In this document: positions 104-19,193 of the stretch, piece after piece
How the letters are laid out: each line of letters begins with the position of its first letter
Numbering within the stretch: position 1 is the stretch's first letter
Virus record (IMG/VR): IMGVR_UViG_3300025840_000310
Coordinates: 1-21,332 of that record
Strand: one strand, 5' to 3'
Source: a virus
Length of the DNA: 21,332 bases
Notes under the pieces: model-generated
Told to the model about the DNA's origin: nothing
Databases searched by the model: none
Seen by the model: only the letters and a program-made list of their open reading frames with translations
Position numbers and translations under genes: made by a program

Positions 104-259
104 TTAAGATAAGTTATCTAAACCTTCTTTAAAATCTCCAATCAAATTTCCCAATTCTCTTTGAGTTTTTGGGTCAAGTTTTTTGATGTCTTTGATGTGT
201 TGTTTGATTACCTTTGAAACATCGACTGAAAAGTTTTGTAAAATTTGCATCTTATCCAT
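104..259 (-). CDS. Small 51-residue protein, translationally coupled to the gp22-like gene
   Basis: The ATG at 259-257 overlaps the TAA of the upstream gene (TAATG), with AAAGG a few bases upstream as a possible ribosome site. The reading frame stays open for 51 codons to a TAA at 106-104. The product starts MDKMQILQNFSVDV, is rich in Lys, Asp and Leu, and is predicted by eye to be helical; it has no signal peptide, membrane segment or cysteine. I do not recognise the family. Its place between the scaffold and the putative major capsid gene suggests a role in prohead assembly, comparable in position only to the small core proteins of T4. It is real if the coupled overlap is conserved in relatives. 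Confidence 0.6.
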   Translation of the reverse strand: MDKMQILQNFSVDVSKVIKQHIKDIKKLDPKTQRELGNLIGDFKEGLDNLS

Positions 260-1023
260 TACTTTACCTTACCCTTTTCAATATCTCTTTCTAATTCTTT
301 ACCGGCACCAAGTACATAATTCATTGCAGTTTTCATATCAACATTCATATACTTCATAATCTTCTTAACTGCCATCAAAACGATTCTCTTTTCTTCAGTA
401 GAGTAACCCTCTTTCAAAATATCAGTTAGCTTCATTGACTTGGATTCGGTTACTGATTCTTCGGTGAAGTCTTTTGCGTTTTCTTTATCTTCATCATCAA
501 CTGAAGTTACCTTGTATTTTTTACCATCAACTTCAAATTCACTATCACCAGCAGCGATTGCTTTTGCTCTTGCGGCACCAAACTCGTTACCCTCTTCCAT
601 ATCAGCTTCTTTTTCTTCAGCTTCTTTGATTTCGTAGTATTTACCAAGAACTTCACCCATCTCATCGTAACAAGACTCAAGTCTTTGTTGTAGAACATTT
701 ACTTCTTTGATGGTATTTGAGAATACTTTGAATGACTCGTTCATAGACTTCATATGTCTATTAACAGTCACCTTATCAAACCAATCACCTGTTTCTTCAA
801 GAGTTACTTTTTGTGCAGTTTCTACGATACCTTTAATCGATTCGTATACTTCAGCCAAGTTTCCTGTACGATAGATTGATTCACCAAATCTTTTGTATTG
901 AGATACGGCTTCAAGGAATGCACGTTTTTCTTCGTTAGTCATTCCCTTTTCTTCCTCTTCACCAACATTCATTCTTTTATAATCTAAATGTTGAGATTCT
1001 TTAAGTAAGCTTTTCAATTTCAT
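259..1023 (-). CDS. 22: Prohead core scaffold protein, gp22-like by position, with two capsid-targeting-like modules
   Basis: This acidic, largely helical 254-residue protein follows gp21 directly, as gene 22 follows 21 in T4; T4 gp22 (about 270 residues) is the main scaffold and is degraded by gp21. It opens with MKLKSLLKE (1-9), which looks like a T4 capsid-targeting peptide ending in a gp21-type site. Residues about 30-140 look coiled-coil. A small FEVDGKKYKV module lies at 163-172. ESVTE at 189-193 and then a second targeting-like peptide, MKLTDILKE (197-205), introduce a basic C-terminal module of about 49 residues. So the chain looks modular and cleavable. The assignment rests on position, length and composition, not on a confident match to the T4 gp22 sequence. 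The stop overlaps the start of the next small gene. Confidence 0.65.
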   Translation of the reverse strand: MKLKSLLKESQHLDYKRMNVGEEEEKGMTNEEKRAFLEAVSQYKRFGESIYRTGNLAEVYESIKGIVETAQKVTLEETGDWFDKVTVNRHMKSMNESFKVFSNTIKEVNVLQQRLESCYDEMGEVLGKYYEIKEAEEKEADMEEGNEFGAARAKAIAAGDSEFEVDGKKYKVTSVDDEDKENAKDFTEESVTESKSMKLTDILKEGYSTEEKRIVLMAVKKIMKYMNVDMKTAMNYVLGAGKELERDIEKGKVK

Positions 1024-1664
1024 TATTTTACTCCGAAATCACATTCACAATAGCCACTAACTTCACAAATGATTTCTCTCATAAGGTTGTTAGCTTTCTT
1101 GTATTTATAAGTATTGTTTTTAATGGTAACCGACTCATTGATTACACCTTCGTTTTTTGGAGACATAAATGCACCATGAGTTGATGGATTAGATACAAAA
1201 TCCCAACAAATCAAATCAAAGTCGTTTTCAACTGCAACAGTATCCTCACCGATTTGTTTTACTGAACCCATACCTCTTGATGAGATACCAACAGTACAAC
1301 CCGCTTTAATGAGTTCTTTAAGAATGTTACCCGTAGGTGTGTTGAGAATTTCAACTGTACCTACTACATCATCATCCTTCCAATAAACATCACGAACGAT
1401 GTGTGATGTGTTCTTTAATTCTACAACGGCAGATTCAGGATGGTCGAGTTCTCCGTAAGCACGATTCTCTTTAATTTCACGACCCTTGTATTTCTGAACT
1501 TCTCTTTCAAGAATGTTTTTTGGGTACACTCTACCATTCTGGTTTTTAGCGTTTGCTCTCTGCAATACACCATTAACCAAGAAACGACCGTGTTTTTCTT
1601 GAGCCTCTTGTAACATTGTAGGTGTTACATCAAATATCATTGTATCTACAAGAAGTTGTTTCAT
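1023..1664 (-). CDS. 21: Prohead core protein protease gp21
   Basis: This is the serine protease that matures the T4-type capsid by cutting core and shell proteins inside the prohead. I choose the ATG at 1664 (MKQLLVDTM), giving 213 residues, close to T4 gp21 (212). It has GGGAG upstream and overlaps the preceding gene's stop as TAATG; a TTG four codons earlier is less likely. Characteristic motifs are QNGRVYP (42-48), GELDHP with probable catalytic His75, and GISSRG with probable catalytic Ser128 or Ser129. WDFVSNPS (154-161) is also typical. NEGVINE followed by SVT (171-180) could be a self-cleavage site, since T4 gp21 self-processes. The C-terminus holds three cysteines (200, 206, 208). 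Its last base is the first base of the gp22-like start codon. Confidence 0.93.
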   Translation of the reverse strand: MKQLLVDTMIFDVTPTMLQEAQEKHGRFLVNGVLQRANAKNQNGRVYPKNILEREVQKYKGREIKENRAYGELDHPESAVVELKNTSHIVRDVYWKDDDVVGTVEILNTPTGNILKELIKAGCTVGISSRGMGSVKQIGEDTVAVENDFDLICWDFVSNPSTHGAFMSPKNEGVINESVTIKNNTYKYKKANNLMREIICEVSGYCECDFGVK

Positions 1665-1804
1665 TAGTTCTCCCAAACCTTTTTCTTTCTATATAAATCA
1701 AAGAAGACCCGTGCTAATTCTCTACGAATCATCAAACGGATTTCCTCAAGGTCTTGAACCTCAAGTTCTTCATTCAATTTATTTTTATTACAACCACACG
1801 ACAT
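1664..1804 (-). CDS. Small 46-residue protein coupled to gp21
   Basis: The ATG at 1804-1802 starts one base after the stop of the 173-residue gene. The frame runs 46 codons to a TAA that overlaps the gp21 start (TAATG). The product starts MSCGCNKNKLNEE and continues as one charged helix (LEEIRLMIRRELARVFF) with a basic C-terminus (RKKKVW). The CGC pair near the N-terminus could bind metal or be structural. T4 has the small core genes 67 and 68 in this interval, so a minor prohead core or assembly role is plausible by position; I see no sequence match to them. The tight coupling on both sides supports it being translated. Confidence 0.62.
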   Translation of the reverse strand: MSCGCNKNKLNEELEVQDLEEIRLMIRRELARVFFDLYRKKKVWEN

Positions 1805-3214: not shown

Positions 3215-5083
3215 TCAAATCGTGTCTTGAAGAAGATTTGATTCATCTAAAAGACCACTTTCTTTCTTAACATCTTCACCTAAAGATTCTTGTAAAATTT
3301 GATGTGACTTTACTTTTACCTTTTTCAAAGATGTTCTCAATGCCTCTTTTTGTTCATATGCAAGAGGTGAGTTTTTGTATTTGTGGTATGTTGCCGCTGG
3401 TTTAATATCAGTTTGTTGACCTAGTGGGTCTCTACCAAATGTACTATCATCGGTTTTATAAGTTCCGGCAGTTTCTGGTCTACCAGCTCCTTCAAATCCA
3501 CCTTGAGGTGAACCACCTTGATTTTCCTCACCCGCTTCTTCACCATCTTGTAGGTTTAATGCAGCAAGGTCGTGTGGTGTACCAAATGATTGGCCGGTCT
3601 TAACTGGGTCATTACCTTCATCTTCGATTTGTGTGTGTCTAAATCCAAGTTTAAGGTCGTTAATAACTTTAGCTTGTTCAGCCTTCCATTCATCATCGGA
3701 CATATTCATAATGTTTTTATACATCCATTCTTGAGAAACCATTTTAAGGTCTTTCATATCTCTGACAAGATTTACTTTTTCAGACCATAAAGATGCCTTT
3801 TCTTGTTCGTAAATAATAGATGGGTTGGTTAATTCCAACTCAAAGTTTACAAGGTCTTCGTTTTCGTAACCTTGTGAGTATAAGTGAACAATTGCAATTT
3901 TAGTCAACTCGGAAAGAACAATTTTTTGAATTCTCTCAACCGAACGTGCGAATCTGATATCTTCTTGTGCTAATGTAGCTTTACCTTCAACGGCCTCATC
4001 ATATCCAATAAATGCTTTTGGAACTTTGAGTGCTGCCATCATTCTATTTCTCAAGTATTCGATATCATCGATACCACCAAATTCCATTCCGCTTAATGAC
4101 TCAATCTCCGTACCACTTTGACCGCCACGAACTGGAAGATAGTAATCATCCAACATATTCATCAAGTTAAACTTGAGGTTGTAGTCACCTGTGGTTTGGT
4201 CGAGATATGGAATTTTTTTCATTTGGTCGATGATACTTCTCATATGGTTATCAACCTCATTTGGAGGAATATTACCCACATCAATCTTAAAGATTCTTCT
4301 TTCTGGTGCTCTCATAATTCTATGAATCATCATTGCATCTTCCATAAGAGTCAATTGTTTCCAAGTCTTTCTTGCACCCTCTAAAAGAGAACGACCATAA
4401 GGTAGGAAGTTTGTATCTGCCATCAAACGGAAATGTGCAATTTGATAGAACTCAAAAACTTCTGCATTCTTGTTTACACTTGCTCCGTGAGCAGCACCCA
4501 TAGAACCTAATTTGAATCTTACTTCATATGGGTTTTCAGGATTAAAACCCTCTTCACGTTCTACCTCATATGCTGACATTGGTGATACATTTACAATACC
4601 AACACCTTCTTCGATATCAAGGTGAAGGAAGTAATCACCATACTTGTTCATACCACGAATCCAAGCCCATAGATTGAACTCAATGTTTAGAACATCGTAA
4701 AATAAGTTGTGAAGGATTTTCTTTACATTTTCATCTTGAGTTTTGATACGAAGTACATCTCCCATATCATTCTTCAAGGTACATTCATCAGAGTAGATAT
4801 CCAAAACTGAAGCAATAATGGAATCCTTATCCATTGCTTCGTAATCAGTATATAATTCTAATTTGTTTGAATGATAATTAAATTGGTTGTTGTATGTTTC
4901 CCAATTTCTACGAGTAGTATGTAATCTACCAAATCTATCATAATATGATGAACCACGAAGGTTACCTTGGGATTGTAATCGTTGGGTGTCAACTGCTTGA
5001 GTACGACCCTTACCAATCCTACGAACAACAACCTGTGTGTTGAATAGTTTTCTTAATCTACCAAAAAGAGATTTATCTGCCAT
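3215..5083 (-). CDS. 20: Portal vertex protein gp20
   Basis: This 622-residue protein forms the dodecameric ring at the capsid vertex through which DNA is packaged and the tail is attached. It is recognised by T4 gp20-type features: DSIIASVLDIYSDECT near 85-100, a central region with RAPERRIFKIDVGN and IEYLRNRMMAALKVPKAFIGYD, and YEQEKASLWSEKVNLVRDMK. It is longer than T4 gp20 (524 residues). The extra length is a low-complexity Gly/Glu/Gln-rich C-terminal tail (from about residue 500, EEAGEENQGGSPQGG) ending in LQESLGEDVKKES. It lies directly after gp17, without gp18 and gp19. The start at 5083 follows a 70-base gap that contains a TATATTTATA element; no strong Shine-Dalgarno is seen. Confidence 0.93.
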   Translation of the reverse strand: MADKSLFGRLRKLFNTQVVVRRIGKGRTQAVDTQRLQSQGNLRGSSYYDRFGRLHTTRRNWETYNNQFNYHSNKLELYTDYEAMDKDSIIASVLDIYSDECTLKNDMGDVLRIKTQDENVKKILHNLFYDVLNIEFNLWAWIRGMNKYGDYFLHLDIEEGVGIVNVSPMSAYEVEREEGFNPENPYEVRFKLGSMGAAHGASVNKNAEVFEFYQIAHFRLMADTNFLPYGRSLLEGARKTWKQLTLMEDAMMIHRIMRAPERRIFKIDVGNIPPNEVDNHMRSIIDQMKKIPYLDQTTGDYNLKFNLMNMLDDYYLPVRGGQSGTEIESLSGMEFGGIDDIEYLRNRMMAALKVPKAFIGYDEAVEGKATLAQEDIRFARSVERIQKIVLSELTKIAIVHLYSQGYENEDLVNFELELTNPSIIYEQEKASLWSEKVNLVRDMKDLKMVSQEWMYKNIMNMSDDEWKAEQAKVINDLKLGFRHTQIEDEGNDPVKTGQSFGTPHDLAALNLQDGEEAGEENQGGSPQGGFEGAGRPETAGTYKTDDSTFGRDPLGQQTDIKPAATYHKYKNSPLAYEQKEALRTSLKKVKVKSHQILQESLGEDVKKESGLLDESNLLQDTI

Positions 5084-5155: not shown

Positions 5156-6727
5156 TTAAAGTAACCAAGTTAAATCATTGTCATTTCCGTATGGGTCTTT
5201 TTGTTTCCAAGGGTCTTGACCTAATGTTCTACCCGAATACACACCCGTGTTGGATTTACCAATATGACCCAATGTGGTTCTCGTTAAATCCATACCTTGT
5301 TGTCTTAATCTCAATGCAGTATCACGAACCCACAAGCCCGTTGAGAATGACATCACCAAATCATCATTATAACCTCGCTGTGCTTCGGCTCTACTACCAT
5401 TCCATATGAATACGAATAACTCATCAATTAATCGCTTAGAGTGAATGATTGGGGTTCGTTCTCTCATGTAAGTATCGAGTTTTGAAATCACCAAAGGTCG
5501 TGTTCTTGAGGACATTGTAAAACCAGGAACCATATCATCTTTTCGTTTTAAGTCCCAACCTTTACGAAGATGAATATCTTCATCAATGTAACCCAGCTCT
5601 CTATATGAATAATATAAATTTTGATATTGTCTATCAATAATTTCTTGAATTACAGCCCACCCAATGTTTGCGTTTTCAACAACCAACATTGCATTATTCC
5701 ACTCACTTGCAACTGATGCTAAAAATGCACCATATTGTTTAGTTTCAATTTTACCTTTATATTCTGCAACTTGTTCTACGGTTTCTATGTCAAAAACATG
5801 GAATGCTGAATAGTCGGTTGAGTCACCACGAGCGACATCGGCAACAACCACATAGTCACGAGAATAATTTGGATAATCCCATAACCAATAGTTACCATCA
5901 AATCCTCGTTTTTCAACAGGGTCTTTTACATAAGTCTCTTGATACCATTGTAGTGTAGAACCTTCTACTACTGTATAACCGGATGAAATAAAGTCACAAT
6001 CACATTCTTGGGCTGCGCCCTTTTCACCAAGGAGTTTTGTTTGTTCATCTCTCCATCGTTGATTTCTATCAGGGTGTACAGTCCAATGGAGTTCGGTTGG
6101 GTGCCATTGTTCACCAGCTTCCCCCTGTAACCATACTTTGTGAAACCAATTACCCACACCATTTGGTGTAGAAAGTACAATAGCACCACCACCTGTTGAA
6201 AGTGTTGATTGTGCTGATGTCCAAATTTCTTCTACATTATCAATAAATGCAGCCTCATCAATTACCAAAAGAGACAATGCTTCAGAACGACCAGCATCTC
6301 CAGCAGCAGATGTTGCTTTGATTTGCGAACCATTCTTTAATCGGAGTGATAGTTTGTTGTCCTCTTCGGTTTGACCTTTTAACCAAGTTGGTAAGTTAGA
6401 ATGCATGAAACGAACCTTCGTTACAAGGTTCTTTGCAACCTCTTGTTTGGTAGCGATTACCAATACATTCTTATCTTCGTGAAACAACATCAGCCAGAGT
6501 GAATATCCGGCTGAAAGTGTAGAGATGCCTAATTGTCGTGATTTGAGGATTACATTAAAACGATGGTCATTGATATTATGCATCAACCCCTCTTGAAACT
6601 CATACAAGTTAAAAAGGATTTTTCCTCGGTGGGGGTGCTGAATGTAACAATACTTTTTAAAAAAGTATACAGGGTCTTTAGCGCACTTGACCCACTCTTC
6701 TCGTATGAGTGTTCTTAAATCTGGCAT
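5156..6727 (-). CDS. 17: Terminase large subunit gp17 (packaging ATPase and nuclease)
   Basis: This motor pumps DNA into the prohead and cuts the concatemer. The ATPase domain has SRQLGIST (63-70) at the Walker A position, Walker B LLVIDEAAF with Asp157/Glu158, and the coupling motif LSTPNG (185-190). The RNase H-fold nuclease has VVVADVARGDSTDY with Asp297, LVVENANIG with Glu351, and YNDDLVMS with Asp455/456, matching the T4 gp17 acidic triad. At 523 residues it is shorter than T4 gp17 (610). The Walker A motif is unusual: T4 has SRQLGKTT, whereas here Ile replaces the P-loop lysine, with Lys62 just before the motif. The gene starts six bases after the preceding stop. Confidence 0.95.
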   Translation of the reverse strand: MPDLRTLIREEWVKCAKDPVYFFKKYCYIQHPHRGKILFNLYEFQEGLMHNINDHRFNVILKSRQLGISTLSAGYSLWLMLFHEDKNVLVIATKQEVAKNLVTKVRFMHSNLPTWLKGQTEEDNKLSLRLKNGSQIKATSAAGDAGRSEALSLLVIDEAAFIDNVEEIWTSAQSTLSTGGGAIVLSTPNGVGNWFHKVWLQGEAGEQWHPTELHWTVHPDRNQRWRDEQTKLLGEKGAAQECDCDFISSGYTVVEGSTLQWYQETYVKDPVEKRGFDGNYWLWDYPNYSRDYVVVADVARGDSTDYSAFHVFDIETVEQVAEYKGKIETKQYGAFLASVASEWNNAMLVVENANIGWAVIQEIIDRQYQNLYYSYRELGYIDEDIHLRKGWDLKRKDDMVPGFTMSSRTRPLVISKLDTYMRERTPIIHSKRLIDELFVFIWNGSRAEAQRGYNDDLVMSFSTGLWVRDTALRLRQQGMDLTRTTLGHIGKSNTGVYSGRTLGQDPWKQKDPYGNDNDLTWLL

Positions 6728-6733
6728 ACATTT

Positions 6734-7138
6734 TTATAATACGAATAATACAGCAATCAATGTAGCGCCACCGGCACCACCCAATAACAAACCATTCCAA
6801 AATTGCCCTCTTTTTTGTTTTTTGAGGGTTTTGATTTGATTGTCTTTTAATTCAATCAGATTATCTTTTTGTAGGATAATTTGTTCCTTACTTTGAAGTG
6901 CAACTGAAAAGTTTGCGAGTTGTTGAGATTGTAATTCAATCTTATCAACTTGTAGTGATACTAACTCTTGAGTAGTTTTTAACTCTTCTTTACATACATC
7001 GAATTGAGACTTAACGACTAACGCATTTTTAACTGCGGTTCTTGGAACTGCAATTACACTATCAGTTGAAAGCGTTTGCGAAAGCAGAGATGAGGTCATC
7101 ATCAGACATATCATCAAACTTATCCATTTGCTCTTCAT
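6734..7138 (-). CDS. Exported coiled-coil protein with C-terminal membrane segment (134 aa), possible lysis partner
   Basis: The N-terminus (MKSKWISLMICLMMTSSLLS) is a signal peptide with likely cleavage after SLLSQ. The middle (about 45-105) is heptad-like and rich in Gln, Leu and Lys. The C-terminus (about 112-134, FWNGLLLGGAGGATLIAVLF) is a glycine-rich transmembrane segment. The first 77 bases overlap the end of the 114-residue gene in another frame; the overlapping start is needed to give a proper signal peptide. A coiled coil joining a secreted N-terminus to a membrane C-terminus recalls spanins, which fuse inner and outer membranes at lysis. There is no clear lipobox cysteine, so the function is uncertain. 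Confidence 0.72.
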   Translation of the reverse strand: MKSKWISLMICLMMTSSLLSQTLSTDSVIAVPRTAVKNALVVKSQFDVCKEELKTTQELVSLQVDKIELQSQQLANFSVALQSKEQIILQKDNLIELKDNQIKTLKKQKRGQFWNGLLLGGAGGATLIAVLFVL

Positions 7139-7406
7139 ATCGTTTTCTCAAGTTTAAAAGTTGTGCATTTTTAGAATCAATCTGATTGTCAATTTCTGCA
7201 ATCTGATTACTCAATCCAAGATTTAATTGGATGAGTGAGTCTGCCTCACTCTCCAATCTTGAAATCTCACCTAAATACTCCATCTCTTTTTCTTTCAACA
7301 TTCTTTCGTATTCTTTTTTGTAGGTATTACCCATAAAGAATTGCTGGTAGATAAGGACACCTGCCAAACAAAGAATTACAAGTTGAGATGGATTTAGTTT
7401 TTTCAT
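7062..7406 (-). CDS. Membrane-anchored coiled-coil protein (114 aa), i-spanin-like
   Basis: The chain begins with two lysines and one N-terminal membrane helix (about 7-25, SQLVILCLAGVLIYQQFFM). A long, highly charged coiled coil follows to about residue 95, then an acidic tail (DDMSDDDL). This N-in, C-out topology with a periplasmic coiled coil matches Rz-type i-spanins. The next gene starts inside its 3' end in another frame, as Rz1 does in Rz. The ATG follows the previous stop directly (TAAATG). No enzyme motif is present. Alternatives are a membrane-anchored structural or superinfection-exclusion protein. Confidence 0.72.
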   Translation of the reverse strand: MKKLNPSQLVILCLAGVLIYQQFFMGNTYKKEYERMLKEKEMEYLGEISRLESEADSLIQLNLGLSNQIAEIDNQIDSKNAQLLNLRKRYEEQMDKFDDMSDDDLISAFANAFN

Positions 7407-7754
7407 TTATTTTTTTGCAGCTGGCTTTCTACGAGGCTTACGGTTCGTAGGTTTCTTTGCAACTGGCTTGGTATCACCAACGTTAGTTGCTGCTGGTTTT
7501 TTTGCTGCTGGTTTTCTGCGTGGTTTACGTTTAGATGTTGACTTTCCTTTAGCAGCATCGACAACATCTTTTGATTCCTTAACAACATTCCTTACAGCAG
7601 TACGAACTTCTTTTACTTCCTTAACCACGTTTCTAGCACGAGTCTTAACTTCAGCAACATCTTCTTTAACTTCTTTAATTACTTCAACTACTTTTTCATC
7701 AATAGTAGTTTTACCAAGTAACCAATTCCAAGTTTTCTTTAACCAATTTTTCAT
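7407..7754 (-). CDS. Amphipathic helical protein with histone H1-like Lys/Pro/Ala tail (115 aa)
   Basis: Residues 1-14 (MKNWLKKTWNWLLG) form a Trp-rich amphipathic segment that could sit on a membrane. Residues 16-70 are a charged Val/Lys/Glu helix. Residues 71-115 are a basic, disordered tail in which RKPRRKPAAKK occurs twice (76-86 and 105-115); the two copies use different codons at DNA level. Such tails occur in H1-like nucleoid proteins and bind DNA non-specifically. The gene is first in the short group with the two coiled-coil membrane proteins, after a 61-base gap with a promoter-like element. Function is unknown; DNA compaction, a DNA-membrane contact or a lysis-related role are all possible. 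Confidence 0.7.
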   Translation of the reverse strand: MKNWLKKTWNWLLGKTTIDEKVVEVIKEVKEDVAEVKTRARNVVKEVKEVRTAVRNVVKESKDVVDAAKGKSTSKRKPRRKPAAKKPAATNVGDTKPVAKKPTNRKPRRKPAAKK

Positions 7755-8491: not shown

Positions 8492-9535
8492 TTACTTAAA
8501 CTTTTTAATTAGTTTTACTTGAACTGAATTACCTGGCTTACCTGCGATTGCAGATACCAATGCCATTCTCTCTGGAAGTTTACCAACCTTAACGTATTGA
8601 TATACTTTTTCAATATCCAAATTGTTGTCATCAACGAACTTTTGGATAGCGTCTTTGTTCATACCAGTCAAACCACCAATTTCCATTGCGGTTCTACTAG
8701 CTGCTTCGTTTACTGATTCCATTTTGAATCCTTTAGAAGTATAGTTTTTGATTGCCTTTTCTAAATCAACTTTATTTTTGAAAGTTTCAATATCAAAGAA
8801 ATCACTACCATCTTTGTGTTTCTTAACACCATCGTGAGAAGAGATACTATATTTAGCTTTACCGATTTGTGGATTTACTTTGAATACTTTTTTACCTTCG
8901 GTTACTGATTCAACAATCTTTACAGGAACTAAAGCAGTACCTTTATCAGTCAACTTCATTACATATGGAACTCCATCAATTACTGATTTGTAATCTTTGT
9001 GAGTTTTTGCCCACTCTTTTTTAGAAATGGTATTTGTGATTTTAAATTTAGCACCCTCGGTGATTGATTCCATCAATCCAATTGCAGTAGTACCAACAAC
9101 TCGCTCAGCACCATCTGCATATTTGTTGTTTAGAATTGCTATCTTTACCGGCTTGTCAATTATATACATTGGAAGTGGGGATGTACCAAATGAATATTTG
9201 ATTCCATTCTTTTTTAATTCTTTACCAATATCCATAAAAGATTTAGAAGCTTTTACGATGTCAGCAAGTTTATCCAACATATCATCATGCTTACCTTCGT
9301 TTACTGATTCTTCTACCGACTCACCTGCACATTGTTTCCAACCACCACCAGCGGCTTTGTATTGTTTAGATGCCCAGCCATTTGCGTATGCTGATGGGTA
9401 TACATCAAACTTCTTCTTTGCTTGTGATTTGTAATACGACCATTTTGATGCGTCAGTAGGGCAATTCTTTTCTTCAAGTTTTTGAACTTCTTCACCCAAT
9501 AGTCGTAATTCTTCAATATATACTCTCTTATCCAT
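8492..9535 (-). CDS. Multi-module capsid polyprotein with four ESxxE boundaries (347 aa)
   Basis: AAGGAG at 9546-9541 lies five bases before the ATG, a strong ribosome site. The protein splits into five unrelated modules at near-identical motifs: ESVNE (76-80), ESITE (156-160), ESVTE (209-213) and ESVNE (273-277). Cutting after each final Glu gives pieces of 80, 80, 53, 64 and 70 residues, each next starting with Gly or Ala. Module 1 has the motif DVYPSAYANGWASK (44-57) with Cys25 and Cys69, a small domain I recall from T4-like phages. Modules 3 and 4 are basic beta-type segments; module 5 looks helical (IEKVYQYVKVGKLPERM). The motif fits the hydrophobic-x-Glu specificity of T4 gp21. Module functions are unknown. 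Confidence 0.78.
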   Translation of the reverse strand: MDKRVYIEELRLLGEEVQKLEEKNCPTDASKWSYYKSQAKKKFDVYPSAYANGWASKQYKAAGGGWKQCAGESVEESVNEGKHDDMLDKLADIVKASKSFMDIGKELKKNGIKYSFGTSPLPMYIIDKPVKIAILNNKYADGAERVVGTTAIGLMESITEGAKFKITNTISKKEWAKTHKDYKSVIDGVPYVMKLTDKGTALVPVKIVESVTEGKKVFKVNPQIGKAKYSISSHDGVKKHKDGSDFFDIETFKNKVDLEKAIKNYTSKGFKMESVNEAASRTAMEIGGLTGMNKDAIQKFVDDNNLDIEKVYQYVKVGKLPERMALVSAIAGKPGNSVQVKLIKKFK

Positions 9536-9544
9536 TCAGACTCC

Positions 9545-9844
9545 TTAATTGATGTATGCGTTCAGCTCGTATCCGTTCTTCATACCATACACTTGAATTT
9601 GAAGTGCTTTTCTTTGAGGCTTACCACCTTTAAGTAGACCTACTGTAAAACGAGTGTCTTTACCTACTGAAGGTCGTGAACGAACATTTTTACCACCCAT
9701 TGCTATTTGAGATTGCCAATCATCTTCATCGATTTCGTATCCACGTTTTTCAGCAAACTTTTTTGCTTCTTCTGCAGCATCAGTAAACGATTTGTGGTAT
9801 ACTTTATAATCTGCTTCTTTTAAAAGTGACTTTAACTTAATCAT
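9545..9844 (-). CDS. Small capsid internal-type protein (99 aa)
   Basis: AAGGAT precedes the ATG at 9844. The chain starts MIKLKSLLKE and then ADYK, nearly the same as the start of the gp22-like scaffold (MKLKSLLKE) and very like the T4 internal protein pattern of a ten-residue targeting peptide cut by gp21 after Glu. The mature part has GYEIDEDDW (35-43), RSRPSVGKDTRFTVGLLKGG and KALQIQVYGM, a compact alpha/beta domain I have met as a small hypothetical protein in other phages. No catalytic motif is apparent. It is one of a run of similarly headed genes, so packaging in the capsid is the best inference. Confidence 0.76.
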   Translation of the reverse strand: MIKLKSLLKEADYKVYHKSFTDAAEEAKKFAEKRGYEIDEDDWQSQIAMGGKNVRSRPSVGKDTRFTVGLLKGGKPQRKALQIQVYGMKNGYELNAYIN

Positions 9845-9853
9845 CAGAAATCC

Positions 9854-10612
9854 TTATTTTTTATATACAGACTCTTTAAAGATTCTCATACCGGTATTTT
9901 CGACCAATGCTTCAACTTTTTGCCCTAATGGTCTACCAATAGTCATTGAGATGTAGAATCCCATTGCGTTTACAATGTCTTTACCATCCCACTTACAAAT
10001 ATTTGCAACGTCAGGACCCAAGTCGTAGTGATACATTTCCTCAAGGTCTTTCATTCCTTGTGGGTCACCTTCGTATTTTGCTTTAGGGAACAATTTAGCA
10101 ACACCCTTTGCTTCACTATGGAAGTTAGCGTCACCCAATGCACCCATCAAAATGTGCATTACTGCCCATTGGTGATTTGCGCCACCTTTTCTTAAATCTT
10201 TAAGATTCTTATCTAAAAGTTGTTTAACCTTTTTGTTCATCCCAGCATCTTCATTAAGAAAACTTTCTACGATTGATTTTAAGTTCATATCACTCTCCGT
10301 CGATTCTAACATCTTTAATAATTTGTCATCTTTAATAATAAATGTATATCCAGCTTGATGACCATATGGGTCGTTTTCAAATTCAAGACCAGTTTTCTTT
10401 TTTAGATAAACTGCCGTAGTATTTCTAAACTCTTCATCAGCTAATCTTGGATTTGAACTTTTACGAAGGATATCTTCAATAGCATCTAAATCTTTAGATG
10501 TCTTTGGTATAAGGTTAATCTGACCATTCTTGAATGATGTATAAAATTCAACCTTTACACCACCATAGGTGAATTTAGCCTTACCTTCTGATAACAACGA
10601 TGTTAGTTTCAT
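9854..10612 (-). CDS. Two-module capsid cargo protein with internal targeting-like peptide (252 aa)
   Basis: The chain starts MKLTSLLSE (1-9) followed by Gly, a capsid-targeting-like peptide. Module 1 (10-107) is alpha/beta, with GGVKVEFYTSFKNGQINLIP. A second targeting-like peptide, MNLKSIVESFLNE (109-121), leads into module 2 (122-252). Module 2 is helical, with GGANHQWAVMHILMGALGDANFHSEAKG and YHYDLGPDVANICKW. The DNA before Met109 carries GGAGAG six to nine bases upstream of that ATG (10293-10298), so internal initiation or an ancestral separate gene is possible. The start overlaps the stop of the 193-residue gene as ATGA. Neither module has a function I recognise. Confidence 0.76.
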   Translation of the reverse strand: MKLTSLLSEGKAKFTYGGVKVEFYTSFKNGQINLIPKTSKDLDAIEDILRKSSNPRLADEEFRNTTAVYLKKKTGLEFENDPYGHQAGYTFIIKDDKLLKMLESTESDMNLKSIVESFLNEDAGMNKKVKQLLDKNLKDLRKGGANHQWAVMHILMGALGDANFHSEAKGVAKLFPKAKYEGDPQGMKDLEEMYHYDLGPDVANICKWDGKDIVNAMGFYISMTIGRPLGQKVEALVENTGMRIFKESVYKK

Positions 10613-11224: not shown

Positions 11225-13525
11225 TTAGAAATACATTAAACCCAAGATTTGGTTTAGTGATGCAAATGTACCTGTAAGTTTCATTGTGTATCCTTTGTAA
11301 GTAAATACAATACCCTCGTTTGGTACAATCTTATCTCTACCACCAACTGCGTTTAATCTTTCTAATTCCATTTTTAATTTTGCAATCTTTTTTGGGTCAC
11401 CTGACTTTTTAACATCACCGATGGTTTTGTCAAGTCTCTTCTGCATATCTCTCAATGCGCCATCAGGATTAACCGTGAGTGCTGAAGACATAAATGATAG
11501 AACCTCTGCACCCACACCCAAGAAGATATCTTCAAACTTACGAAGATTATCTTTTGAGATTTTTGCCTGGTCAATCTTATCAGTTTTTTGTGCCCAATCT
11601 AATGTTTTCTTATCTGAAATGTTTTTACTATCCAAACGGAATCCTTTGTCGTAGAATGCCCATCTCTTTACCAATCCCATTTTGGTTTTGTTGTCCAAAG
11701 TAGTTGGTGAGTTTTTATCAACATACTCTTCCCACCATCTTTGGTGATATTCAGCCACACCATCGGTATCTTTGAGTTTGAACTCTTTTTGTACTTTAGA
11801 TAGTTGACCAAAGAACTTTGATTTCATTTTTGATAGTTCTTGGTTTTGTGGAAGTTTTACCACAGGAGGGCCTTGGATGGTATACTTTGATTGAACATGA
11901 GCATTCACTTGTTTAATCATACCGGCAAGGATTCTTGCATCAGAGGTGTCTGCTCCAATTGCCTCACCCTTCTCATTGTACTCCATTGTTCCGTGGAAAA
12001 CTAATAGTGGTTGACCGTATGGTACTACGTTAACTGACTCCGGCCAGATGACTTCAATGTTCATAAATTTTGAACCATCTTTGAAGACTTTCTCTTTTTG
12101 TGCATCTGATAGTTTTGAAATAGCTGATTCCAAATCTTTCATTGCGAAATTGTACGCATCGGTCAAACCCCCTCTATTAGCAAACTTATCTGAAACACCT
12201 TTGATGTCCAATGCGTTAAGTCCCCTATCTTTGAGATGTGATTTATTTCTTGCAGCGATGATGCCTCTATCTTTTCTATATGAGATAGCAAGTGCTTGTC
12301 CATCGGTTTTTTCTCTGGTAAATTCCAACTTACCATTTAGTGCTTTGTCGATGATAATTTTTAAATCACCGAAGGTTAATCCAAGTTCAGTATCAAATGG
12401 GTGATTCATGTGACCATATGCACCACCCTCGTTAAGGATACCTTCTTTAAGGTTGTTCTTTTTAGCTTTTTGCTTTTCGGTATCAATTTTTGGAGTAAGG
12501 TTGTTGATTTCTTTTGGTTCTGCAAATTTAACAAACTCCATACCTAAACGAAGTGCGACTCTCTTAATGTGCTTTGCCCATTTAGTATAACCAGGACGAC
12601 CTGTGATGTCTTTACCATATCTGGCTTTCTGACCATCCATCGTGTCACCTGTTGGGAAGAATGATACACCCAAACGACCTGGACCTTTTGGATATTCGGT
12701 GGAAGTAATATTTTCCATCGAATCATCATCCATTAAATACGATACAATATCCCAACCTAATTTCCCAACAACATCATCCATTTCAGCACGAAATGTATTC
12801 ATATTACCATAGAAAGCGCCAGGACCATCATCCACCATACTTCTACCGATTGGTGAAACCGATGAACCTTCTTTTATAATTTCATTAATATCAATTGTTT
12901 GTAAGAATGACTCCATTACAGACTCAACCTTTGACATACGACCTGATACTAAATTAAAAATCTTTTGGTCAAACTTTGGGTATACTGATTTAAAAAACTT
13001 AATTCTTTTTTGTTCATCTGGCTCCGACATACCTTTGCGAACTTCAGTACCAGAAATACCACGACCTTGTGGTGGTACGATATAAACATATCCGTTATCT
13101 TTCATTGGAAGTGATGTATCACCCTTATATGGTTGGAAGAATCTTCCCTTACCCATACCCAATCTACCAGCATCTTTCTCACCAACTACCGTGACAAACG
13201 CAGTTGTGTTCTCATCAAACTTTCCAAGAATTTCTTTTGGAGCGTATGGATTCTTTACTTGGTATATTTTATTTTTTGGAATACCAAACATCGTAGTCAT
13301 TATCTGAACTTTTTCCTTAAAACGGAATGGTGACTTTGGTAATTCTACTTTATCGGAAGTTCCAATGTAAACATTATCTTTACCAAACTTTTTTACCAAA
13401 TGTTGGTATACAGCATTATGGCCTGAATGGAATGGGTGAAACCTACCTACATACGTTACCACGGTTTTCTTAACATCTTCAGTTAAGATTGATTCTGTTA
13501 TCCATTTGTTTATAAATTTTCCCAT
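11225..13525 (-). CDS. NMN adenylyltransferase-like and ligase-like nucleotidyltransferase polyprotein (766 aa)
   Basis: Three parts are separated by cleavage-like motifs. (1) After MGKFINKWITESILTE (1-16), residues 20-195 form a nucleotidylyl transferase domain with GRFHPFHSGH (27-36, HxGH motif) and ISGTEVR (157-163), most like NadM/NadR-type NMN adenylyltransferases. (2) After INEIIKE (213-219), a middle module (220-360). (3) After GILNE (362-366), a region like the ATP/NAD-dependent ligase fold: EKTDGQ with candidate nucleotidyl-lysine Lys406 (KxDG), MNIEVIW with Glu491, EGIVF (737-741) and YTMKLTG with Lys749, in the order of ligase motifs I, III, IV and V. The long insert between motifs III and IV is unusual. 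I recall related C-terminal regions as a domain of unknown function in marine T4-like phages. Enzyme activity is inferred; packaging into the capsid is a hypothesis. Confidence 0.78.
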   Translation of the reverse strand: MGKFINKWITESILTEDVKKTVVTYVGRFHPFHSGHNAVYQHLVKKFGKDNVYIGTSDKVELPKSPFRFKEKVQIMTTMFGIPKNKIYQVKNPYAPKEILGKFDENTTAFVTVVGEKDAGRLGMGKGRFFQPYKGDTSLPMKDNGYVYIVPPQGRGISGTEVRKGMSEPDEQKRIKFFKSVYPKFDQKIFNLVSGRMSKVESVMESFLQTIDINEIIKEGSSVSPIGRSMVDDGPGAFYGNMNTFRAEMDDVVGKLGWDIVSYLMDDDSMENITSTEYPKGPGRLGVSFFPTGDTMDGQKARYGKDITGRPGYTKWAKHIKRVALRLGMEFVKFAEPKEINNLTPKIDTEKQKAKKNNLKEGILNEGGAYGHMNHPFDTELGLTFGDLKIIIDKALNGKLEFTREKTDGQALAISYRKDRGIIAARNKSHLKDRGLNALDIKGVSDKFANRGGLTDAYNFAMKDLESAISKLSDAQKEKVFKDGSKFMNIEVIWPESVNVVPYGQPLLVFHGTMEYNEKGEAIGADTSDARILAGMIKQVNAHVQSKYTIQGPPVVKLPQNQELSKMKSKFFGQLSKVQKEFKLKDTDGVAEYHQRWWEEYVDKNSPTTLDNKTKMGLVKRWAFYDKGFRLDSKNISDKKTLDWAQKTDKIDQAKISKDNLRKFEDIFLGVGAEVLSFMSSALTVNPDGALRDMQKRLDKTIGDVKKSGDPKKIAKLKMELERLNAVGGRDKIVPNEGIVFTYKGYTMKLTGTFASLNQILGLMYF

Positions 13526-16025: not shown

Positions 16026-19000
16026 TTATAAATATGATACTTTAGAGAACCCACGAACTTTATTGATATCAATTATCTGGTCAACCATATCTCGTGTCTT
16101 ATCAATATGAGATATCGTGATGATAAAGTCAAATTGGGTCTTCAAGTAATCAAATAATAAATATAGAGAATTAAAGTTGTCCGTGTCTAACGAACCAAAC
16201 CCTTCATCAATAGCAATAAAGTTTGGTCGTGGTAGATTGGATACATTAATCAAAGCAGTTCTAATTGCGATAGATGAAATAAACTTCTCCATACCACTTG
16301 TAAGTTCTAATGGCCAATATTCAGTATCACCATATGCAATGTATGAGTTGATATTTTTACCATCAGTATTCAATAGGATTTGAAAATCTACAATTGGTGA
16401 TAGGATGTTATTAATCTCAATCTCCAACTTTGGTAGAACATCTGAAATTAGATTATAGGGGATACCATCTCTCTTTACACACTTGAGGTAATATTCATAT
16501 CCATCGAACCGAACTTCCATATCACGAAGTTTATCAATGGATTGATTTACATTCTCAATAGTCTTTTCAGCAACCTTGATATCAGAATTGATTGTCATAA
16601 TCTCATTAGTGACATCATCAATATCATCTCGTAGTTGGTCTCGTGTGACTTTAAAAGATTTTATCTTTTGTTGGATTTCAGCATTATGGCTTACTGCTTG
16701 CTCTTGGTCTTTAGCTCTTTGAATTTTTTCTTCGAGTGACTTGATGCCCAAGCCAATGTCCTTAACCAACGATACACAATAATCATATGACTTACTTGAC
16801 TTCAACCACTCTTTATCTAATTCAGCGTGTCTACTTGAAAGGGCTTCATACTCTTTGAGTTCTTTTGTAACATCACACTTGTCACGTTCAGACATTGTAT
16901 TCAATCGTTCTGAAACAGTAGATGAATATTTCTTACCCAAAGACTCAATCTCATCTTCAAGACCTTGTGCTTGTTTAGCAAATGGTGTATTCTGATTCTT
17001 TACACAATGTTCACAATTATCATCAAAGGTTAATGAACCAATACCATCCAAATGTTTTTTAGCGTGAATCATTTCAGATTCAATTTTATCCAAAGACAAT
17101 CCAAGTTCATTGAATTTTCTATCCAATGATTTGTATTGGTTGTTTTTTTCTTGAAGTTCCTTAATATCGTATTTAGATATTTTGGTTGTGATTGACTTTT
17201 GTTCAGTCTCAATGTTATGAACCTCTGCAAGATTCAAGGCACATTCACTATCTTGTCTCTTACGTTCTTTTTGTAAAGATTGTAGTTGACCTTCTAAATC
17301 AGATACATCACCCAACTCCTCGACTGGTTTGAGATTACCCATCTCAAATTCAATTTTAGTATTTACCACATCGCGTTTAGACTCTAACTCAACCTTTCTA
17401 TCTTGTAGAGTGGTGAGAGACCCTGTAATGGATGTGAGTGTATCTTCTGCCTCTGCAAGTTGTGTTGGTAGGTCTTGGTTCTTATAGTCCTTTAGAAGGG
17501 CTGATAGTTCCTTAATCTCCTCACTTGCGATTTGGTATAGACTTTCGAAGACATCCATATCCAAGAATTGTGCAAGTAGTTCTTTCCGTTCCTTTTGAGA
17601 CTTGTCGATGAACCCACTATTGTTTGATTGGGTTGACATCGCCGTGAGAACGAAGTCATCATAAGTTCCAACATATTCTCTAATAATTGTGTTTGTTTCT
17701 CTTCGTTGCTCACCATTAAGAGATTCTACTTGCCCATCTACCACACGATAGAAATCAGTATCAACTTTTACAGTTCCCCTCTTTGGTGACTTCTTAGCAG
17801 TTCGCTCAATGGTGTAGTCAACACCATTCAATTCAAATGTAAACTTACAATCAAACGACATCTTTGAGTAGTTCATCACATCCTCTGCTTTTGAGGTTCT
17901 CGAACACTTATCAAAGATACAAAATGATAGTGCATCCCAAAGAGTTGACTTACCACTTGCGTTTGGAGCAAAGATACCATATGCTCCTTTCATCTGACTG
18001 AAGTCAATGACATTGTTAGGGCCATACGAGAACATATTTGAAAACTCAAATTGTTTTGGTATCCAAGTTGAGTTCGTAATTGTTCGTTGTGTTCCAAGTT
18101 TTGCGTTAATATCTTGGTTGATTGTTTTAACCACTTCAAGTTGTTCCTCGGTGAGATGTTCGGTGTCATTTAAGAATTCCTCAATCAGTTTGTTTTGGAA
18201 CGCAGTGTCACGAACATTCTGAAGAATAATCTTTTCGTGTTCACCACCCTCTTTACGAGTGATAACTTTTTGTACGGTCAACTCTTGTACCTTACGACCC
18301 TTCTTTAGTTCAGCAAGAATCTTGTTAAGGTCAGACGCCTTTGTGTCTTTTACACGAACTCTCATTCGTGGTTTTTGAGGGATTGGGGTATTTGATACAA
18401 TCTTGCCCTCTTCAATATCTACCGTGACATATCCGTAATCGTTATGAATTTTTACAAATTTATTTTCACGAGTTTCTACATCCCATACCAAAATTCCGTG
18501 GTCTGGGTATTTAGCCTCTCCGTGATTCTGAACGATTAATGAACCTGGATATTTAATATTGTCTTTACCTTGGACTGGATTATTTGGTTTGTGAATATCA
18601 CCCAAAAGTACGATGTCGTATCCATCAAAGTTCCCAACACTAATGTTCTTGTTCTCTATTGTAAATCCATGTTCGGTCTCAATCTTATCAACCGGCCCAT
18701 GGAACATTGCAATTTTTACATCACCACTATAATCGGTTGCTGGTGGGAATCCTGGAACATTATCCCATACAGTTTGATGTACAAATGTAATACCACCAAT
18801 TTCCCATGCACCACTATCTTTTAAGTAAACCAATCGTGGGAGTTTTAATGCGTTAACAATGGGTGTTAATGCATCCAAACGAGATGGGTTATTTAGGTTA
18901 GCATCGTGGTTGCCCGGAATCACAATCGTTGGTAGTAGGTCTGACAATCGAGTAAAGAACTCTTGAGTCAAATCCACCACCTCCGGTGACATATCCGTTT

Positions 19001-19193
19001 TTGCGTGAACAATATCACCTGCAATTACTATGATGTCATTTTCCTCCATTGTGGTCAAAATATAACCATAAAGTTGGGAAAATACATCACGATACTCGGA
19101 ATGTCTTTTTAGGTTTCTAATGTGAACATCGGCGATGTGATAAATCTTATTTACCTTTTCAACACCTATATTAATCTTTTTCAGTTTCTTCAT
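16026..19193 (-). CDS. 47/46: Fused Mre11-like nuclease and Rad50-like ATPase (gp47-gp46 fusion, 1055 aa)
   Basis: Residues 15-345 form an Mre11/SbcD/gp47-type phosphoesterase: ADVHI (Asp22, His24), AGDIVH (Asp60), PGNHD (His96), MFHGP (His165) and LGDIHKP (Asp199, His201). Residues 380-1055 form a Rad50/SbcC/gp46-type ATPase: FAPNASGKST (408-417, Lys415), long coiled coils, the zinc hook CEHC (727-730), the signature LTSGMEKF (964-971), Walker B NFIAIDEGFGSLD (991-1003) and the switch His1029. Both halves look intact. In T4 these are two genes whose products process DNA ends for recombination-dependent replication and host DNA degradation; here one unbroken frame encodes both. The ATG overlaps the primase stop (ATGA). 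The end overlaps a promoter-like element at 16027. Confidence 0.95.
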   Translation of the reverse strand: MKKLKKINIGVEKVNKIYHIADVHIRNLKRHSEYRDVFSQLYGYILTTMEENDIIVIAGDIVHAKTDMSPEVVDLTQEFFTRLSDLLPTIVIPGNHDANLNNPSRLDALTPIVNALKLPRLVYLKDSGAWEIGGITFVHQTVWDNVPGFPPATDYSGDVKIAMFHGPVDKIETEHGFTIENKNISVGNFDGYDIVLLGDIHKPNNPVQGKDNIKYPGSLIVQNHGEAKYPDHGILVWDVETRENKFVKIHNDYGYVTVDIEEGKIVSNTPIPQKPRMRVRVKDTKASDLNKILAELKKGRKVQELTVQKVITRKEGGEHEKIILQNVRDTAFQNKLIEEFLNDTEHLTEEQLEVVKTINQDINAKLGTQRTITNSTWIPKQFEFSNMFSYGPNNVIDFSQMKGAYGIFAPNASGKSTLWDALSFCIFDKCSRTSKAEDVMNYSKMSFDCKFTFELNGVDYTIERTAKKSPKRGTVKVDTDFYRVVDGQVESLNGEQRRETNTIIREYVGTYDDFVLTAMSTQSNNSGFIDKSQKERKELLAQFLDMDVFESLYQIASEEIKELSALLKDYKNQDLPTQLAEAEDTLTSITGSLTTLQDRKVELESKRDVVNTKIEFEMGNLKPVEELGDVSDLEGQLQSLQKERKRQDSECALNLAEVHNIETEQKSITTKISKYDIKELQEKNNQYKSLDRKFNELGLSLDKIESEMIHAKKHLDGIGSLTFDDNCEHCVKNQNTPFAKQAQGLEDEIESLGKKYSSTVSERLNTMSERDKCDVTKELKEYEALSSRHAELDKEWLKSSKSYDYCVSLVKDIGLGIKSLEEKIQRAKDQEQAVSHNAEIQQKIKSFKVTRDQLRDDIDDVTNEIMTINSDIKVAEKTIENVNQSIDKLRDMEVRFDGYEYYLKCVKRDGIPYNLISDVLPKLEIEINNILSPIVDFQILLNTDGKNINSYIAYGDTEYWPLELTSGMEKFISSIAIRTALINVSNLPRPNFIAIDEGFGSLDTDNFNSLYLLFDYLKTQFDFIITISHIDKTRDMVDQIIDINKVRGFSKVSYL
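16027..16036 (-). promoter_or_regulatory. CATATTTATA element upstream of the large fibre gene
   Basis: The minus strand reads CATATTTATAAG across the last codons and stop of the Mre11-Rad50 gene, about 22 bases before the ATG at 16005. It shares the ATATTTATA core with the copies at 81, 5121 and 7788. It would allow late expression of the structural gene independently of the upstream replication genes, if it is a promoter. Confidence 0.33.

Follow-up and report, generated by a model that had tools for sequence, protein, structure and literature searches.

The 347-aa ORF on the minus strand of the window, i.e., the whole stretch of 21,332 nt from IMG/VR virus record IMGVR_UViG_3300025840_000310 that was analyzed, is best explained as the gene of a T4-like marine phage for a modular precursor of internal head proteins. 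As judged from sequence, this precursor would be cut by a gp21-type protease and its cargo is probably ejected, a reading that we give a probability of about 0.72. In related phages, modules are swapped, lost and inserted exactly at the protease-type sites, and the gene therefore resembles a rack on which cargo proteins for the head can be exchanged. The minus strand carries all main ORFs of the window. The relevant features are as follows (↓ marks the predicted cut).

259..1023, minus strand: 254-aa second polyprotein (locus B), start MKLKSLLKE↓S, ESVTE linker at 445-459
1023..1676, minus strand: gp21-like prohead protease (Peptidase_S77), the presumed processing enzyme (Pfam, PHROG)
3215..5083, minus strand: portal protein (gp20-like), adjoining the terminase like the annotated gp20 in immuto
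5156..6727, minus strand: large terminase (gp17-like), 59% to Flavobacterium phage immuto
7816..8490, minus strand: 224-aa ORF, one base downstream of the 347-aa ORF (ORF list)
8492..9535, minus strand: putative modular precursor of 347 aa with a propeptide-like start and five modules (translation, relatives, module clustering)
8495..8704, minus strand: module 5, residues 278-347, family D (clustering, model)
8705..8896, minus strand: module 4, residues 214-277, family E (clustering, model)
8719-8705, minus strand: linker ESVNE of module 4, GAATCAGTAAACGAA (sequence)
8897..9055, minus strand: module 3, residues 161-213, family Cb, few homologues (clustering)
8911-8897, minus strand: linker ESVTE of module 3, GAATCAGTAACCGAA (sequence)
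9056..9295, minus strand: module 2, residues 81-160, family F, with terminal linker ESITE at 9070-9056 (clustering, model)
9296..9322, minus strand: double linker ESVEE/ESVNE, residues 72-80, apparent prohead-protease sites and recombination junction (sequence, swaps)
9296..9469, minus strand: module 1, residues 23-80, family C, pI 8.9, cyanophage relatives (clustering, model)
9470..9535, minus strand: residues 1-22, probable CTS-like acidic propeptide ending in LEE↓K (alignment of relatives)
9545..9844, minus strand: 99-aa ORF with CTS-like start MIKLKSLLKE↓A; its family also occurs as module Ca (by eye)
9854..10612, minus strand: 252-aa ORF with CTS-like start MKLTSLLSE↓G and a family-J-like module (by eye)

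The ORF runs from 9535 to 8492, and the plus-strand translation of 8492-9535 is riddled with stop codons. In the minus-strand translation, the motifs ESVNE (residues 76-80), ESITE (156-160), ESVTE (209-213) and ESVNE (273-277) are located exactly where the original prediction had placed them, and the segment lengths of 80, 80, 53, 64 and 70 residues are correct. The segments had been described as dissimilar to each other, and they indeed belong to five separate module families without cross-similarity. ES[VI][NT]E occurs four times in the 347-aa protein, compared to a maximum of two across 200,000 residue shuffles. A second site, ESVEE↓S (residues 72-76), which overlaps ESVNE 76-80, had been overlooked. 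Furthermore, an N-terminal site LEE↓K is present at residues 20-22, in which Glu22 is invariant and the preceding residue variable in 21 aligned sequences, with L, I or M as P3 among relatives. Because of this site the protein consists of six pieces and not five, so that the proposed multi-piece layout stands but its count does not. Residues 1-22 are acidic and CTS-like, but do not clearly show the MKxxxLLxE form of the adjacent genes; from the sequence they are probably a propeptide, which may have a targeting role.

The gene order of the window is large terminase, portal, two small core-position ORFs, gp21-like prohead protease and 254-aa ORF. In relatives gp22 and gp23 come next, and the window ends before gp23; the T4 order for comparison is 17-18-19-20-67-68-21-22-23. 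The nearest deposited terminases are those of immuto (59%) and Microcystis phage Mel-JY01 (58%). As for T4-type prohead protease substrates, a gp21-family protease gene is located in the same head operon: the gp21-like ORF matches Pfam Peptidase_S77 (1.2e-32) and PHROG 207 (2e-51) and shares His79, Ser132/133 and Asp159 with T4 gp21. Among head-locus genes, 7 of 15 in one whole relative and 6 of 17 in another have an N-terminal [LI][LIK]xE, vs. 5 of 147 and 7 of 161 genes elsewhere. The 254-aa ORF was considered as gp22 and discarded, as the gp22 of the relatives is the acidic gene adjoining gp23. Its product contains an internal MKLTDILKE↓G that resembles a capsid-targeting start left after gene fusion, and several internal CTS-like starts are also present in relatives of this second polyprotein.

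T4 gp21 cuts after L/I-x-E (PMC9026906), and T4 Alt is cut by gp21 at ITE-6 and LTE-619 (PMC5694885). The linker sites of the 347-aa protein, VNE↓G, ITE↓G, VTE↓G and VNE↓A, follow the pattern [V/I]-x-E↓[G/A]. P3 of the linkers is mostly Val, whereas T4 favours Leu/Ile, which counts against gp21 sites. However, the major capsid proteins of the relatives G001, G002, Mel-JY01 and immuto have VSE↓A or ISE↓A at the position of the gp23 maturation site of T4 (E65↓A66), and for this reason the lineage is taken to accept Val/Ile at P3 of its best-understood substrate. The hydrophobic P3 and the Glu at P1 of the linkers thus match the lineage's own gp23 site, with gp23 taken from relatives. ES[VIL]xE occurs 17 and 20 times in two relatives of ~170 kb, compared to 3.2 and 3.9 expected occurrences, and all ESV[NT]E motifs of both genomes fall into head-locus polyprotein genes. 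Within modules, no depletion of [VIL]xE[GAS] was seen (272 observed vs. 123 expected), a point against gp21 sites that is partly explained by the use of only the strictest sites for splitting. From their sequence, the linkers are apparently cutting sites for the phage's own head protease.

Relatives were gathered from viral contigs with the protein, the terminase and the protease as queries, which resulted in about 180 loci. The 137 non-redundant ORFs with at least one strict motif were split at the motifs into 499 segments, which form 65 families with at least two members and 69 singletons. In the 72 complete ORFs with at least three modules, 60 distinct architectures and 146 distinct ordered adjacencies were detected, and five pairs occur in both orders. 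In the window the modules follow the order C-F-Cb-E-D; for family D the left neighbour is of 11 kinds and the right one likewise of 11, and for family F both numbers are 13. Family F is also present in the second polyprotein locus beside gp21, and the gene that separates gp21 from gp22 contains fused modules as well. ORF borders shift as well, the 224-aa ORF being the C-terminal part of the same polyprotein in relatives, e.g., L040 and L048. A homology check module by module had been proposed with the original prediction, and it recovered the modules in different orders as well as in further genes and contexts. The refuting outcome named there, orthologues that lack the motifs but conserve the rest, was not obtained: in relatives the motifs persist and whole modules are swapped at them. 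For modules 2-5, no tblastn match was obtained among 50,697 deposited phage genomes, and a peptide-pattern search in bacterial genomes revealed no relative. An 838-aa polyprotein (L035, 559-3075, plus strand) carries two identical copies of the 37-aa module GRAFINAAKKAKAEGKTEFEFNGKTYPVTIKESVVNE.

Homology ends at most 5 aa from a strict linker for 54% of the distinct breakpoints at sequence identities of at least 80% and for 65% at identities of at least 90%, and control sites displaced by 20 or 35 residues account for 0-1.7% overall and 0-1.3% at the higher identity; these counts take in related sequences and are not fully independent. The leftover breakpoints favour general [VILM]xE sites (0.50 vs. 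0.23). Exchange at linkers is directly visible in close relatives of the window. L128 is 96% identical to it on both flanks, but has 767 bp of other modules in place of modules 2 and 3 (8913-9307); one end of the exchanged stretch lies within the ESVEE/ESVNE linker, the other at base 1 of the ESVTE linker. L140 is without module 3 and differs in module 1, with a break at the first base of ESVEE. L130, at 98-99% identity, has a relative of module 2 not here but in the 254-aa locus, adjacent to the ESVTE linker at 445. The original prediction had named the product a capsid polyprotein. A polyprotein layout is strongly supported by the swaps at the motifs and the separate modules, but the term capsid is not supported: nothing in the protein is shell-like, and the place of the gene, its protease-type sites and the CTS-like starts nearby speak for internal (core) proteins. 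The best reading of the sequence is that the product would be core cargo and not capsid shell.

The linkers are also conserved as DNA, a feature that the original prediction had missed along with the cassette-like shuffling. In total, 123 of 210 ESV[NT]E linkers are exactly GAATCAGTAAACGAA. Between linkers of unrelated modules, the codon identity is.95 for E,.68 for S,.95 for V,.70 for N and.90 for the final E, compared to.73,.63,.61 and.65 for identical E, S, V and N residues in orthologous modules and.66,.28,.41 and.51 expected from codon usage. The uniformity of the 15-bp linkers of unrelated modules hence exceeds what codon usage or constraint on the protein would lead to. This DNA conservation is sharply bounded by the 15 bp and the following G (131 distinct contexts). 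The linker DNA occurs only in frame within polyproteins in two whole genomes, and 161 of 167 exact linker 16-mers among the matches listed from viral contigs, some of which were already in the set, encode ESVNE in frame. Homogenization of linkers within an array was tried as an explanation and found no support, since the codon variant follows the upstream module (z 3.3-4.8) and not the protein (z 0-0.6), which suggests that module and linker travel together. In immuto, an 841-aa ORF (114006-116531) contains the linker as GAATCAGTAAATGAA at 115452. One copy of linker DNA, GAATCAGTAAATGAA, was found apparently in frame in T4 nrdC.8 (L318/AF158101, 53466-53480, minus strand), a gene outside the head operon, and may be due to chance.

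A double purpose of the linker, as a protease site in the protein and as a conserved 15-bp exchange site in the DNA of an open-ended cassette system, is a tentative proposal. It is likewise conceivable, if somewhat doubtful, that under such a double purpose T4-like phages of open waters combine head-delivered proteins in an integron-like manner within one reading frame. As the linker is both a protease-type site and a near-identical stretch of 15 bp, exchange over it would allow modules to be swapped, dropped, duplicated or moved to another locus in frame and without spoiling processing. Homologous exchange over the linker would be the simplest route, and a dedicated enzyme may be possible as well. 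The replication of T4 is linked to recombination, which could help such an exchange.

The conservation of the linker DNA beyond the protein level and the position of the breakpoints would equally be expected if the linkers were recombination junctions only and the product an uncut multidomain head protein of the beads-on-a-string type. We regard this as unlikely, since the linkers obey the gp21 site rule with a free P2 (N/T/E), the variants ESITE and LxE↓K retain only P3 and P1, and gp23 of the same phages shows the same P3-P1 pattern. Furthermore, a protease gene is present in the operon, and the residual breakpoints prefer the general [VILM]xE sites.

For structure prediction, the protein was divided into module 1 and residues 75-347 because the full-length alignment misplaced module 1. 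Module 1 alone reached a mean pLDDT of 82.6. In the model of residues 75-347 (pTM 0.36), modules 2 and 5 reached about 90 and module 4 75-85, whereas module 3, with few homologues, was poorly modelled (<50); the linkers are below 50 at residues 75-80 and 274-278. A single compact fold spanning the motifs, which would have contradicted the polyprotein, was thus not predicted; instead, confident separate modules are joined by low-confidence linkers, with the exception of the poorly modelled module 3. The models fit separate beads on flexible joints. The modules of the window have a size of 5.9-8.7 kDa and a pI of 8.1-9.7, and 72% of all modules are above pI 8. By analogy, the products would resemble T4 internal proteins in size and charge. 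No fold or family match pointing to a module function was obtained with Pfam, PHROG, PDB, Foldseek and VIA-align. Foldseek and VIA-align yielded nothing trustworthy, the best hit (Z 6.5, part of module 4 vs. a PH domain) lying within the noise level of the tool, and PADLOC gave no match.

These properties bear on a scaffold or core protein like T4 gp22 or gp67, whose gp21-cut pieces leave or fill the head and have no role in the next host. T4 core proteins have many cut sites (PMC9026906), and the modules fused in the gene between gp21 and gp22 as well as the gp22 of immuto, which carries a duplicated module flanked by such sites, would be in line with this explanation. Nevertheless, it appears improbable, as the pieces are basic, folded domains of 53-80 aa with high predicted confidence, and the hypervariability between near-identical phages suits arms-race cargo better. 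In detail, the gp22-like scaffold gene of immuto (L059, 25627-26868; MW353175) holds the module GFEQWLDSVSAQ... in two near-identical tandem copies, with VNE↓G, LEE↓G and LAE↓A as the bounding sites of each copy, as though the scaffold had taken up cargo. That an insignificant pentapeptide is repeated in an ordinary hypothetical protein, for which the missing annotation and the modules of no known function might speak, is already refuted by the shuffles, by the same linkers in dozens of relatives and by the breakpoints at linkers.

For the modular precursor of internal head proteins, the following course is proposed. The chain would be recruited to the prohead core via the N-terminal propeptide or fused core-binding parts, and the gp21-type protease, encoded 7 kb away, would cut after Glu at the [V/I]-x-E↓[G/A/S] linkers and at LEE↓K. 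Judging from site, protease and gp23 match, cutting would free folded proteins of 53-80 aa. Basic fragments may remain with the packaged DNA and be ejected into the host like T4 internal proteins, where they would probably blunt host defences or aid takeover. T4 IPI* blocks a restriction enzyme after injection (PMC9026906).

With T4 IPI, IPII, IPIII and Alt, the system shares small basic modules, a gp21-type protease, L/I/V-x-E sites, CTS-like starts on neighbouring ORFs and poor conservation between related phages. However, T4 encodes one mature protein per gene, whereas up to about ten modules per ORF are found here and swapping takes place inside ORFs, at cleavage-type linkers. No Pfam, PHROG or PDB match to IPI, IPII, IPIII or Alt was found for the tested proteins, IPs diverging fast, and from its sequence the ORF would not be classed as a proven T4 internal protein. 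T4 gp22, gp67 and gp68 likewise have several gp21-type sites per chain and the same operon position, but the T4 core is degraded to peptides that mostly leave, in contrast to folded domains between near-identical linkers.

Polyvalent proteins are multidomain and mosaic, are thought to be co-delivered with DNA and proteolytically separated, and were likened by the authors to viral polyproteins (Iyer et al., 2017, PMC5512222). Several distinct domains per chain and mosaicism between relatives are found here as well. Polyvalent proteins, however, carry known enzyme domains and an embedded peptidase, whereas here the head protease would act in trans and one uniform linker lies between modules. A Pfam scan of ten polyproteins detected no peptidase or enzyme domain, and because these were sought and not found, the 347-aa ORF was not classed as a polyvalent protein. 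The prohead protease substrates of phiKZ and SPN3US have several sites each, are cut after x-x-E and include inner-body or ejection proteins; in the parts of these reports considered, the sites are mainly located in removed propeptides and no shuffled multi-product strings are described (PMC10052503, PMC5694885).

In the open-access literature, with subscription papers and preprints outside this scope, no description of such a system was found. Its parts (gp21 processing, IPs, multiply cut core proteins and polyvalent proteins) are known, but a uniform protease linker between interchangeable modules was not encountered there. Short conserved sequences that promote modular exchange are familiar from T4-type promoter/stem-loop cassettes and gene-boundary homology and lie between genes, whereas the shared sequence found here is coding and itself a protease-type site. 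If the proposed reading is true, tailed phages possess a genuine polyprotein strategy: each chain is the source of many small cargo proteins set free by the head protease, and evolution shuffles cargo at the cut sites. The about 134 module types, most without known relative, would then be candidate injected host-takeover or anti-defence proteins, ESVNE/GAATCAGTAAACGAA would be a simple search signature for more, and a natural design for loading T4-type heads with multiple proteins would be available.

Further observations concern other genes of the window, all on the minus strand. The 766-aa protein encoded at 11225-13525 has an N-terminal cytidylyltransferase-like domain and LxE/IxE/VxE sites (VMES, IKEG, LKEG, LNEG), and it may be another processed multi-part head protein. 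Two overlapping small membrane-type ORFs (6734-7138 and 7062-7406) adjoin the terminase in a spanin-pair-like arrangement. The ORF at 7407-7754 encodes a Lys/Pro/Ala-rich C-terminus resembling a histone H1 tail, which is also present in relatives, and the 1055-aa protein encoded at 16026-19193 reads, by eye, as a fused gp47-gp46 (Mre11-Rad50-like) recombination nuclease.
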